Shown: piece after piece, positions 13,440 through 22,723 of the stretch | Layout: each line of letters begins with the position of its first letter | Numbering within the stretch: the stretch's first letter is position 1 | From: a virus | IMG/VR virus record: IMGVR_UViG_3300015265_000003 | Coordinates: 1 to 47,978 of that record | Direction: 5' to 3' (one strand) | Length of the DNA stretch: 47,978 nucleotides | Notes under the pieces: model-generated | Databases searched by the model: none | Seen by the model: only the letters and a program-made list of their open reading frames with translations | What the model was told of the DNA's origin: nothing | Program-made: the position numbers and the translations under genes

Positions 13440-13654
13440 CCACAATCAACGACCTTGACCAAATCAACACAATGGCGATGATGACCATGTGCGAGCTTGG
13501 GTATGCGCGGTATGAGCGGTTTCGCGCTGGGCTGAAGATGGATGAGGAGGCTTGCGAGAAGTTGAGGCAGTTCGTTCATTCCAATGCTGATCGAGAGCAT
13601 GAGCTTGAATTGCGAATTAAATGCGCACCGATGTACAGACCTATGGCATACTAG
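13436..13654 (+). CDS. Hypothetical protein, 72 aa
   Basis: 72 aa, helical (MTTINDLDQINTMAMMTMCE, then GLKMDEEACEKLRQFVHSNA). ATG at 13436 has GGAGCA upstream and overlaps the preceding stop. Last gene of the accessory cluster; a terminator follows. Confidence 0.65.
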   Translation: MTTINDLDQINTMAMMTMCELGYARYERFRAGLKMDEEACEKLRQFVHSNADREHELELRIKCAPMYRPMAY

Positions 13655-13691
13655 CCACAAGCGAATACCCCTCCTCGCTTGAAGCACCTTT

Positions 13692-13725
13692 AGCCAGTCG
13701 TGAACCGTCCGACTGGCTTCTTTTT
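13692..13725 (+). terminator. Rho-independent terminator
   Basis: Perfect 9-bp stem AGCCAGTCG (13692-13700) / CGACTGGCT (13710-13718), loop TGAACCGTC, then TCTTTTTG. Ends the 12786-13654 unit and isolates the downstream non-coding region. Confidence 0.9.
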
Positions 13726-13781
13726 GCCTATTAAATGGCAGTTTTTACGAAAAACAGGCAGAATATGTGCAGTTTTATGCA

Positions 13782-13792
13782 TGTGATATCAT
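13782..13792 (+). promoter_or_regulatory. Extended -10 promoter for the tRNA-like RNA
   Basis: TGaTATCAT (13784-13792) is a full extended -10; the -35 position (TATGTG) is poor. Predicted start near 13799, three bases before the tRNA-like fold. The -10 lies inside one of three TGATATCA palindromes in this gap, so it may be a regulated promoter. Confidence 0.5.
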
Positions 13793-13801
13793 TTCTGCAT
13801 C

Positions 13802-13876
13802 CGGCGACAATGCCAGCGCAGGACTTGAAATCCTGTTAGCTTCCGGATCGGATTGGGAGATGATACCCGGTCGCCG
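13802..13876 (+). tRNA. tRNA-Ser(UGA)-like RNA, degenerate
   Basis: A 75-nt cloverleaf-like fold. Acceptor stem CGGCGAC (13802-13808) / GTCGCCG (13870-13876) is 7 bp and perfect. Anticodon arm CAGGA/TCCTG (13819-13835) has loop CTTGAAA with U33, anticodon UGA and A37. A class II-like variable arm TCCG-GAT-CGGA (13842-13852) and a T-arm-like TGGG/CCCG stem (13854-13869) follow. Anomalies: the D region is only about 10 nt, the T-loop (AGATGATA) lacks TTC, and no CCA is encoded. It may be a decayed serine tRNA, an unusual tRNA, or a tRNA-mimicking small RNA. The gap 13655-14040 holds no convincing gene. Confidence 0.5.
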
Positions 13877-13883
13877 CAACACA

Positions 13884-13929
13884 CGCCCCAAGCCTATGAC
13901 TTCGGTTATGCTCAAATCGGGGCGTTTTT
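13884..13929 (+). terminator. Terminator with nested C(UUCG)G hairpin
   Basis: Outer stem CGCCCC (13884-13889) / GGGGCG (13919-13924) followed by TTTTT. Inside are AGC/GCT and a 5-bp hairpin ATGAC-TTCG-GTTAT closing on the very stable UUCG tetraloop. It would end the tRNA-like transcript at about 130 nt. Confidence 0.8.
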
Positions 13930-13966
13930 ATGTCACGTGTTCGGTAATTCAGAACAACTGAAAAAG

Positions 13967-14002
13967 TGATATCACAAAGCCACCGAACTGAAACTGATAT
14001 CA
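13967..14002. repeat. TGATATCA palindromes (two of three copies)
   Basis: Perfect 8-bp palindromes at 13967-13974 and 13995-14002; the third copy is at 13784-13791 in the promoter of the tRNA-like RNA. Three copies in about 220 bp is far above chance and suggests a regulator-binding site controlling the RNA and possibly the holin/late genes. Confidence 0.5.
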
Positions 14003-14004
14003 TT

Positions 14005-14038
14005 AGGTCAAATTAGATACATTCCATAAATTAGACCT
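14005..14038 (+). promoter_or_regulatory. Inverted repeat just upstream of holin starts
   Basis: AGGTCAAATT (14005-14014) and AAATTAGACCT (14028-14038) pair with a single mismatch. The structure ends 2 nt before the first holin ATG, and no Shine-Dalgarno sequence is visible there. In lambda S an upstream stem-loop (sdi) sets which of two holin starts is used, so a similar role is possible here. It could also be an operator. Confidence 0.5.
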
Positions 14039-14040
14039 TG

Positions 14041-14364
14041 ATGATGTCCAAAATGCCAGAGAAAGACCCGAACAACTGGATTGCCTTGTGGCATAGCATG
14101 CCCGACACCGTTCGCGCCTCCGTTCTCGGCCTGCTTCTGGCCTTGATTATGGCGTTCAAACAAGACGGGCGAACGATGAGCGAGCGTGTGACAGACGTGC
14201 TGGCAACCCCGATCCTTGTTGTGATTAGCGGTTACTCACTACAGGCAATGGGATTTAGCGAATCGCTGGTATTCGTCCTTGCTGGCGTATTCGCTGGCTA
14301 CGGTATCGGTCCAGTTAAGGCCGTACTAAAGCGCTGGCTGGAAAAGAAAGTAGACGGCGCCTGA
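14041..14364 (+). CDS. Lambda S-like (class I) holin with multiple starts
   Basis: 107 aa from 14041; ATGs also at 14044 and 14053. The product begins MMSKMPEKDPNNW, strikingly like the dual-start lambda S N-terminus (MKMPEKHD), with a Lys between the two Mets. Three hydrophobic helices (about 25-39, 53-69, 77-95) and a basic C-terminus (LKRWLEKKVDGA) fit a class I holin, which forms the inner-membrane lesions that release endolysin. In lambda the longer form with the extra Lys is the antiholin. It lies directly before the terminase genes, about 30 kb from the endolysin. Confidence 0.82.
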   Translation: MMSKMPEKDPNNWIALWHSMPDTVRASVLGLLLALIMAFKQDGRTMSERVTDVLATPILVVISGYSLQAMGFSESLVFVLAGVFAGYGIGPVKAVLKRWLEKKVDGA

Positions 14365-18853: not shown

Positions 18854-19567
18854 ATGCGCATATCGTACGAGCAGCAGATTGAAAGAATGAGAGCACTTTC
18901 TCCAGAAAGAGGCTATGTATTTTATGGCTTCTGCGGTGACTGGCTTGGAAGTAAGACTAAATGCATATTAGAGTGCGCTGACCACGGAAGATGGGATTCT
19001 ACGGATATAAACCATTTCTTGACTGGACGAGGATGTCCTAGGTGCGCACGGGTAAATCTTGAGAAACTAATACACCCAACGAGAGATCAGGTCGAGCGGA
19101 AGGTTCAGGCTGTTTGCGATGCAGAAGGAATAAGGTTTTCACGGTGGCTAGACGACACTAGAAAATCTAGCAGCAGAATAGCCCTGCTATGCGAAACGCA
19201 TGGTGAATACGTCAAGAACATAGATAAATTCCTTAATTCCAAGGAGCGTTGCCAGGCTTGCGTGAGGAATGGATTTAATCGGACTATTGATGGATTCTTG
19301 TATCTGCTTGAATCCGAGTGCGGATGGTTTTACAAAATTGGCATAACGAATCACCCTAAACAAAGATTCACCCAGCTAAAGCGAGCAACTCCATTTAAAT
19401 TCAGTGTAGAAAAGTTGCTGCCAATGCACGGATCGAAGGCGCACGAGATAGAGATTGACGCGCACAAAAGATTCGAGAGCGCTAACATGGAAGGATTCGA
19501 TGGCTGTACCGAATGGATCATGAAGAATATTTCAGTTTCTGATTACATAGAAGAACGGGCCAATTAA
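18854..19567 (+). CDS. GIY-YIG homing endonuclease with zinc-finger repeats
   Basis: 237 aa. Two related zinc modules: C41-H44-C61-C64 (CADHGRW...FLTGRGCPRC) and C113-H116-C133-C136 (CETHGEY...FLNSKERCQAC). A C-terminal T5orf172/MUG113-like GIY-YIG domain follows at about 146-230 (FLYLLES...WFYKIGITNHPKQRFTQLKR, with R171). Stand-alone GIY-YIG enzymes cut phage DNA and spread by repair. It lies between portal and MuF on the opposite strand, with its own promoter, leader RNA and terminator, so it behaves as an inserted cassette. The more AT-rich composition supports transfer. Confidence 0.85.
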   Translation: MRISYEQQIERMRALSPERGYVFYGFCGDWLGSKTKCILECADHGRWDSTDINHFLTGRGCPRCARVNLEKLIHPTRDQVERKVQAVCDAEGIRFSRWLDDTRKSSSRIALLCETHGEYVKNIDKFLNSKERCQACVRNGFNRTIDGFLYLLESECGWFYKIGITNHPKQRFTQLKRATPFKFSVEKLLPMHGSKAHEIEIDAHKRFESANMEGFDGCTEWIMKNISVSDYIEERAN

Positions 19568-22108: not shown

Positions 22109-22723
22109 ATGGAAATTATTGGTCGAGTCAAAGCAAGGTCAGTAGGTCTTGAATTTTATTTCACTGGTGTCGTCTGCAAAAATGGCGAGATAGCCAAAAG
22201 AAGGTCGTCAAACACCAGATGCACGTGCAGTAAATGCATGAAGCAAAAATCAATCAGTATGAGCGCATACAACAGCGTTTATTACGATAAAAACAGGGAA
22301 AAGATAATCGCGGATGAGCGGGGCAGAAAGTTAAGGGACCCTGCCAAGCAATCGGCGTACATGCGATCCTATAGGGCCAAAAATCTTGAAAGAATCCTGT
22401 CATACAGGAGCGAGTACCACGCAAACAACCGAGACAGATCTAACCAATACTGCTCAGCAAGGCGAGCAGCGAGAATGAAAAGAACGCCTGCGTGGTTCTC
22501 TGAGCTTGATGATTTTATAATGTCCGAGGCCAATCATCTGGTGATTATCAGAAGAGAGGCTACAGGTGTTGAGTGGGAGGTTGATCACATGATCCCCCTA
22601 CAGGCTAAGACCGCTAGCGGCCTGCATGTCGGAGCCAATATTCAGGTTTTACCTATGTGGTTCAACAGGTCAAAACGCAACAAGATGATATTTACTGAGC
22701 CGTTTGAGTGGATGTCTCAATAA
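22109..22723 (+). CDS. HNH homing endonuclease
   Basis: 204 aa. HNH core at 155-192: WEVDHMIPLQA (D159, H160), LHVGANIQVLP (N177) and NRSKRNKM (N186). N-terminal Cys pairs (CTCSKC, 38-43) may bind zinc. A basic helical linker with YYDKNREK-type repeats resembles DNA-binding linkers of other phage HNH enzymes, including the one at 47211. Preceded by the conserved leader RNA and a promoter. It sits between terminator and protease gene and probably spreads between related phages. Confidence 0.85.
   Translation: MEIIGRVKARSVGLEFYFTGVVCKNGEIAKRRSSNTRCTCSKCMKQKSISMSAYNSVYYDKNREKIIADERGRKLRDPAKQSAYMRSYRAKNLERILSYRSEYHANNRDRSNQYCSARRAARMKRTPAWFSELDDFIMSEANHLVIIRREATGVEWEVDHMIPLQAKTASGLHVGANIQVLPMWFNRSKRNKMIFTEPFEWMSQ

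Follow-up and report, generated by a model that had tools for sequence, protein, structure and literature searches.

A mosaic array of folded RNA modules upstream of a phage holin gene as a candidate RNA antitoxin or decoy locus

The locus and its neighborhood

The window considered here, meaning the whole stretch of DNA that was analyzed, encompasses the 47,978 nucleotides of IMG/VR virus record IMGVR_UViG_3300015265_000003. Between an open reading frame ending at 13654 and a holin-like open reading frame starting at 14038, it harbors a gap that, on a reading of its ORFs, contains no credible gene, as the original prediction had correctly stated. The features of this gap and of its downstream border are as follows, with positions counted along the window.

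13692..13726, plus strand: intrinsic terminator of the upstream gene, AGCCAGTC..GACTGGCT followed by a T-run; read directly
13784..13792, plus strand: extended -10 promoter element TG-A-TATCAT; read directly and constant in relatives
13799..13848, plus strand: RNA module A, AUCCGG-CGACAAUGCC-AGC-G-CAGGA-CUUGAAA-UCCUG-UUA-GCU-U-CCGGAU; identified by covariation and a covariance model
13802..13808, plus strand: 5' half of a formerly proposed acceptor stem, inside module A; its pairing with 13870-13876 is not conserved
13850..13873, plus strand: RNA module B, a GGAUUGGGAGAUGAUACCCGGUCG hairpin; recurs in many arrays and in different contexts
13870..13876, plus strand: 3' half of the proposed acceptor stem, made up of the end of module B plus spacer; not conserved
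13884..13925, plus strand: RNA module H, the abiF-RNA-like motif CGCCCC-A-AGCCUAUGA..UUAUGCU-CAAAUC-GGGGCG; match to RF03085
13925..13929, plus strand: T-run after module H, which makes module H double as a terminator in the window allele; read directly
13995..14003, plus strand: TG-A-TATCAT again, as a second extended -10-like element before the holin-like gene
14038..14364, plus strand: holin-like protein; Phage_holin_3_1 match, below cut-off

The terminator at 13692-13726 is kept in relatives, with changes in its stem, and insulates the RNA gene from the gene upstream. The extended -10 element, which had also been rightly recognized in the original prediction, lies at the constant 5' border of the arrays described below (TG[AGT]TATCATT), and everything on the 3' side of this border is swapped among relatives. 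The second element is represented in relatives by the related sequences TGATACAAT and TGATATCCT, and the holin-like gene that follows it marks a lysis/terminase neighborhood. A UUCG-capped terminator had been proposed for the end of the locus; the hairpin with its T-run is indeed present (13884-13929), but its abiF-RNA-like motif had been overlooked.

The palindrome TGATATCA is found at 13784, 13967 and 13995, so that all three copies lie in the array gap and none elsewhere in the 48 kb, and at least two of the three coincide with extended -10 boxes. The palindromes were considered as repressor operators and rejected as such, since two of the sites vary as TGNTATCAT or TGATACAAT in relatives and extended -10 boxes therefore fit better. 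Elsewhere in the window, open reading frames that read like a GIY-YIG-type protein (18854-19567) and an HNH-type endonuclease (22109-22723) are inserted among the structural genes.

Readings as a tRNA or a protein-coding gene

The locus had been interpreted as a tRNA-Ser(UGA)-like RNA, whether a decaying tRNA, a minimal tRNA or a mimic of tRNA-Ser, and some of the shape behind this idea is real. A 7-bp pairing, CGGCGAC/GUCGCCG, is possible between 13802-13808 and 13870-13876, an anticodon-arm-like hairpin with U33 in its loop (CAGGA-CUUGAAA-UCCUG) occupies 13820-13836, and folding 13797-13880 to minimum energy gives the cloverleaf-like shape. The energy of that fold is, however, no better than chance (z=-1.5, with 17 of 200 shuffles as good), and when 13782-13929 is folded whole a different structure emerges, in which the -10 region is paired with the supposed T arm. 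T-loop and D-loop consensus bases are absent from the window fold, and no tRNA model scores it. ARAGORN, which had been named with the prediction as a check, finds 0 tRNA genes in the window, Rfam at its usual thresholds returns nothing from the window, and a permissive search of 13640-14060 with the Rfam tRNA model gives no match at E up to 5.

Relatives, moreover, already contradict such a reading. Among 15 distinct loci in which module A is followed by module B, the window included, the acceptor stem is fully paired (7/7) in 4 and retains only 3-6 of its 7 pairs in 11. At loop position 33, 12 of the loci have C and 3 have U; by contrast, the position of the module A closing stem, AUCCGG/CCGGAU, is paired 6/6 in all 15. 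Because the acceptor stem is incomplete in 11/15 loci and U33 is mostly replaced by C, the tRNA reading is rejected, and we consider a tRNA of any of the three kinds extremely improbable. The two halves of the stem belong to modules that are found apart in other arrays, and the stem itself is an accident of two neighboring modules in the window allele.

More distant phages (MR14, L110 and L124) do have true tRNA-like elements beside module A, and there are none in the window. At the start of Pseudomonas phage MR14 (L102 94-163) lies an unannotated tRNA-like element that scores 30.9 bits with the Rfam tRNA model, has an apparent 4-nt anticodon loop and is linked to module A by long helices. A second group of phages (L110, L113, L124 and L135) carries tRNA or odd tRNA-like genes upstream of module A, beside A and B, and in this group ARAGORN calls one tRNA with an undefined anticodon.

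A protein-coding gene has in its favor a 64-aa open reading frame (13767-13961) that, in the window, meets no stop anywhere along the fold. In relatives this frame is interrupted by frameshifts or stops at many different positions, in several of them by a stop directly after module A. With a frame and a length that vary with the array, the candidate was rejected, and its probability is negligible.

Structural modules and the mosaic array

Relatives of the locus were collected from IMG/VR by means of the neighboring holin-like and terminase proteins and of the anticodon-arm sequence. Module A, present in 38 IMG/VR stretches and in Pseudomonas phage MR14, is a separate structural unit. Across 18 distinct sequences, 94.8% of the cells in its fold are paired and 8 pairs are changed on both sides, a score that 0 of 500 shuffles reach, and slid controls pair in 27-46% of cells. 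The copy in the window, which is within the training set, scores 77.5 bits with the covariance model (E=5e-19). The closing stem, AUCCGG/CCGGAU in the window, is AUCCAG/CUGGAU or CACCAG/CUGGUG in relatives and CAGCUG/CAGCUG in MR14. In bacteria, a GTDB pattern scan for module A gave 7 matches, 0 of which keep the module fold, and the covariance model gave 4 matches in 398 Pseudomonadaceae genomes, which is the level of chance; with no bacterial counterpart found in these scans, any target named for module A is a guess. Module B is represented in other arrays by alleles with an AGUU loop.

The arrays share one layout, in which a constant promoter block is followed by variable RNA modules, by one of several terminators, and then by the next promoter, with the holin after it. 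A map based on hand-made module patterns, with module boundaries drawn by eye, distinguishes about 15 module types, distributed over 28 distinct arrays. The window array consists of modules A-B-H, and others read A-G-H, A-C-H, A-C-B-H-M, D-A-C-B-I-H, A-C-J-I-B-H, A-C-K-F-G-B-H, C-E1-E2-H and D-C-O-F-E1-E2, among others. The order of modules is largely collinear across arrays, and modules are gained or lost as units; their loss, gain and exchange are free among phages whose terminases are almost the same. The locus represents one form of a non-coding RNA gene in which folded modules are mixed, matched and swapped.

In some phages, cassettes that encode small proteins and have a promoter of their own lie between the array and the holin. 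In L010, L006, L015, L109, L112 and L130 these cassettes are swappable and share a promoter-like start, TGTTGACG.CGAATCCTGGCAGGCGTAGATTT; it is possible that they are protein counter-defense genes.

Module H, an abiF-RNA-like motif

The permissive search of 13640-14060 yielded a single match in all of Rfam, to the abiF RNA RF03085 at full length; the type III antitoxin ToxI was not matched in this search. Module H scores 28.2 bits (E=0.0045) and does not reach the curated cut-off of 37 bits, for which reason we describe it as abiF-like and do not claim formal membership in RF03085. Matches to the same family occur in 20 of 37 other phage records (E up to 1), at one place in each, with scores of 20-29 bits that stay below the 37-bit cut-off throughout. 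Those that were checked (L144, L145 and others) fall in the array, and records without the motif give nothing. Copies in L002, L120 and L135 have no T-run and are therefore not terminators, while the GC-rich hairpin and T-run of the window could be partly shaped by a terminator role.

Several lines of comparison tie the phage motif to its bacterial namesakes. The full-length alignment to the RF03085 consensus places the conserved bases AGCCU .. GCUCAAAUC in module H, and these bases are common to the host sequence L159 and largely to L158. When host and phage sequences are aligned together, the 6-bp outer and 3-bp inner helices are paired in 95.8% of cells and 6 of the 9 pairs are changed on both sides, a score reached by 0 of 500 shuffles. 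The bacterial abiF RNAs used in this alignment are located upstream of Abi_2 genes and share both the invariant bases and both helices with the phage motif. An Abi_2/AbiF gene is absent from the 14 phage records searched, namely the window and 13 related ones. With its resemblance to RF03085, and with no toxin gene in the phages tested, module H is a phage-encoded RNA that resembles a known RNA antitoxin. In L159 / L177 (G197:C8), the gene downstream of an abiF-like RNA that closely resembles the phage motif is an AbiEi-like antitoxin gene and not Abi_2.

Modules in a plasmid, a defense island and T4

Some of the other modules are also found outside the arrays. A search of 398 Pseudomonadaceae genomes with a concatenated module query returned a copy of module E2, at 94% over the match and 98% over the core. 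This E2-like sRNA (L175 7227-7330) stands alone between DitA and a 348-aa gene whose family is unknown, has an apparent promoter and terminator of its own as read from sequence, and lies near Avs2, an Mrr endonuclease and an integrase in the bacterial defense island of that one genome; it could itself be mobile-element cargo. Module E2 was also considered as isrK and rejected, at a score of 28 against a cut-off of 50. On the 1.17-Mb megaplasmid pPL1 of Pseudomonas silesiensis (L179 7801-8400), C, K, O, J and F-like modules form another mosaic.

Module J is an RNA-like element (ACCUGUAAUAAGGUCGAGCC..GUGCGGUAAUGGGU) whose hairpin covaries, and it is found in >1,000 phage records from Tevenvirinae, Vequintavirinae, Schitoviridae and others, T4 included. 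The copies located are the following.

L189 2354-2406, minus strand: module J in T4 (AF158101), just downstream of denV, between denV and vs.8
L178 2496-2548, and L181, L182, L183 and L184: module J in other records

The T4 copy is partly overlapped by the annotated start of vs.8. Module J was not found in 5,426 E. coli genomes, and its one match in 298 Pseudomonadaceae reads as an ordinary terminator. The E2, megaplasmid and J modules gave no credible Rfam match, module J giving none in the records scanned. They also point toward a link with defense, with less force than module H. A phage and a plasmid of Pseudomonas, as well as one Pseudomonadaceae genome, carry matching modules, which suggests that the host of the window phage belongs to the Pseudomonadaceae.

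Proposed function and alternative explanations

AbiF is a HEPN RNase of abortive infection. The abiF RNA is the RNA antitoxin of this HEPN toxin and acts in trans, and RCd22, which contains two abiF motifs, neutralizes AbiF in trans through direct binding (PMC12373285); AbiF has likewise been treated as a type III toxin (PMC12737573). The simplest reading of a phage that carries an abiF-like RNA and no toxin is that it disarms a toxin of its host. It is with moderate confidence, then, that we interpret the locus as a promoter-driven mosaic RNA antitoxin or decoy array directed against RNA-regulated abortive infection, the RNA of which probably helps the virus to disarm the suicide defenses of its host. 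The better half of the original prediction, a small RNA with its own promoter that acts as a decoy, fits the promoter-to-terminator layout and the antitoxin-like module H.

The predicted gene comprises a constant promoter, a mosaic of folded RNA modules and then a terminator, and each module would most likely serve as decoy or antitoxin, its RNA binding and neutralizing one RNA-regulated abortive-infection protein. The array is predicted to be transcribed, in the window as an RNA made up of module A, module B and the abiF-like motif. This last element would bind and inhibit AbiF, occupying AbiF/AbiD-type (Abi_2, HEPN) RNases in trans, and would double as the terminator. Only module H has a protein partner that is known by homology; modules A and B may have defense targets of their own, and phages may exchange modules in a way that tracks and matches the defenses of their hosts.

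Among the alternatives, the one with the most to be said for it is a phage-internal structural or regulatory RNA, involved for instance in packaging or lysis timing, in which the modules would be interchangeable structural domains. The array does lie directly upstream of the holin and terminase genes, and the large, structured GOLLD and ROOL RNAs set a precedent for ornate RNAs of bacteria and metagenomes. GOLLD and ROOL RNAs also have a phage link. Unlike these RNAs, each with one fixed fold, the arrays are short mosaics of separable modules, and they give no Rfam match to either family. The free turnover of modules among phages with near-identical terminases, together with the occurrence of the same modules on a megaplasmid and, close to denV, in T4, argues for accessory functions and not for a core part of packaging, and this explanation appears unlikely.

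A further candidate is an sRNA that pairs with mRNAs of host or phage and has Hfq- or ProQ-type domains as its modules. The length, promoter and terminator of the gene would suit it, and one module has a weak similarity to isrK. That similarity, however, falls well under the isrK cut-off as given above, and conservation is located in internal loops and covarying helices instead of in single-stranded seed regions, which makes an sRNA of this type improbable. Slightly more doubtful again is a recombination hotspot that gathers transcribed RNA cassettes with no selected function. High turnover and the insertion of small-protein cassettes at the same place would be expected of such a hotspot, yet the compensatory changes in modules A and H and the near-invariant loops across distant phages indicate purifying selection.

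The antitoxin or decoy interpretation can be carried further, in the tentative proposal, possible and somewhat short of probable, that phages of several families, T4 among them, have an as yet undescribed kind of gene, in which arrays of RNA modules are each directed against a different RNA-binding defense protein and are drawn from a library that moves between phages, a megaplasmid and bacterial defense islands. To our knowledge, almost all known phage counter-defenses are proteins. If the proposal is true, an exchangeable array of RNA decoys would be a compact way past many abortive-infection systems, and the module library could be used to find the RNA-regulated defense systems that are targeted, with the modules serving as testable bait for RNA-regulated toxins. 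Gene callers do not see such arrays, and Rfam contains next to nothing of them. The occurrence of module J in T4 as well as in the many other phage records means that a standard laboratory phage could be used to test the idea.

Comparison with known systems

The literature on phage RNA decoys, RNA antitoxins and abiF that was searched, a largely open-access body and thus weak evidence, describes no such arrays. Besides the GOLLD and ROOL RNAs, three groups of known RNAs come close to the array. Module H shares its helices and its AGCCU and GCUCAAAUC bases with the abiF RNA (RF03085, RCd22, AbiFr), and differs from it in its score of 28.2 against 37 bits, in having no adjoining abiF gene and in being fused to unrelated modules. 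Phage tRNA clusters, which supply tRNAs against host nucleases, recall those arrays in which module A has tRNAs or tRNA-like RNAs as neighbors; in contrast to them, the window has no tRNA, and modules A, B and H are not tRNAs.

The precedent for the proposed function is pseudo-ToxI of Pectobacterium phage phiTE, a phage non-coding RNA that mimics a type III antitoxin and acts in trans on the host toxin, suppressing ToxIN, with only expanded or recombined versions being active (PMC3475682). The pseudo-ToxI locus is a non-coding tract with tRNAs, located beside the spanins and the large terminase gene, a neighborhood similar to that of the array. Pseudo-ToxI has been tested by experiment, whereas the array is a candidate read from sequence; the former consists of tandem repeats of one unit against one target, ToxN, whereas the latter contains many modules, one of which is abiF-like, and would address several targets. 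The pseudo-ToxI tract shows no convincing similarity to the array modules, and module J was not found in it either. In the phiTE sequence (L195 1200-1320), the pseudo-ToxI repeats apparently lie between tRNA-like 5' and 3' pieces (CTATAGCTCAGC .. GAGGTTCGAACC .. CCA), an arrangement that suggests tRNA-type processing.
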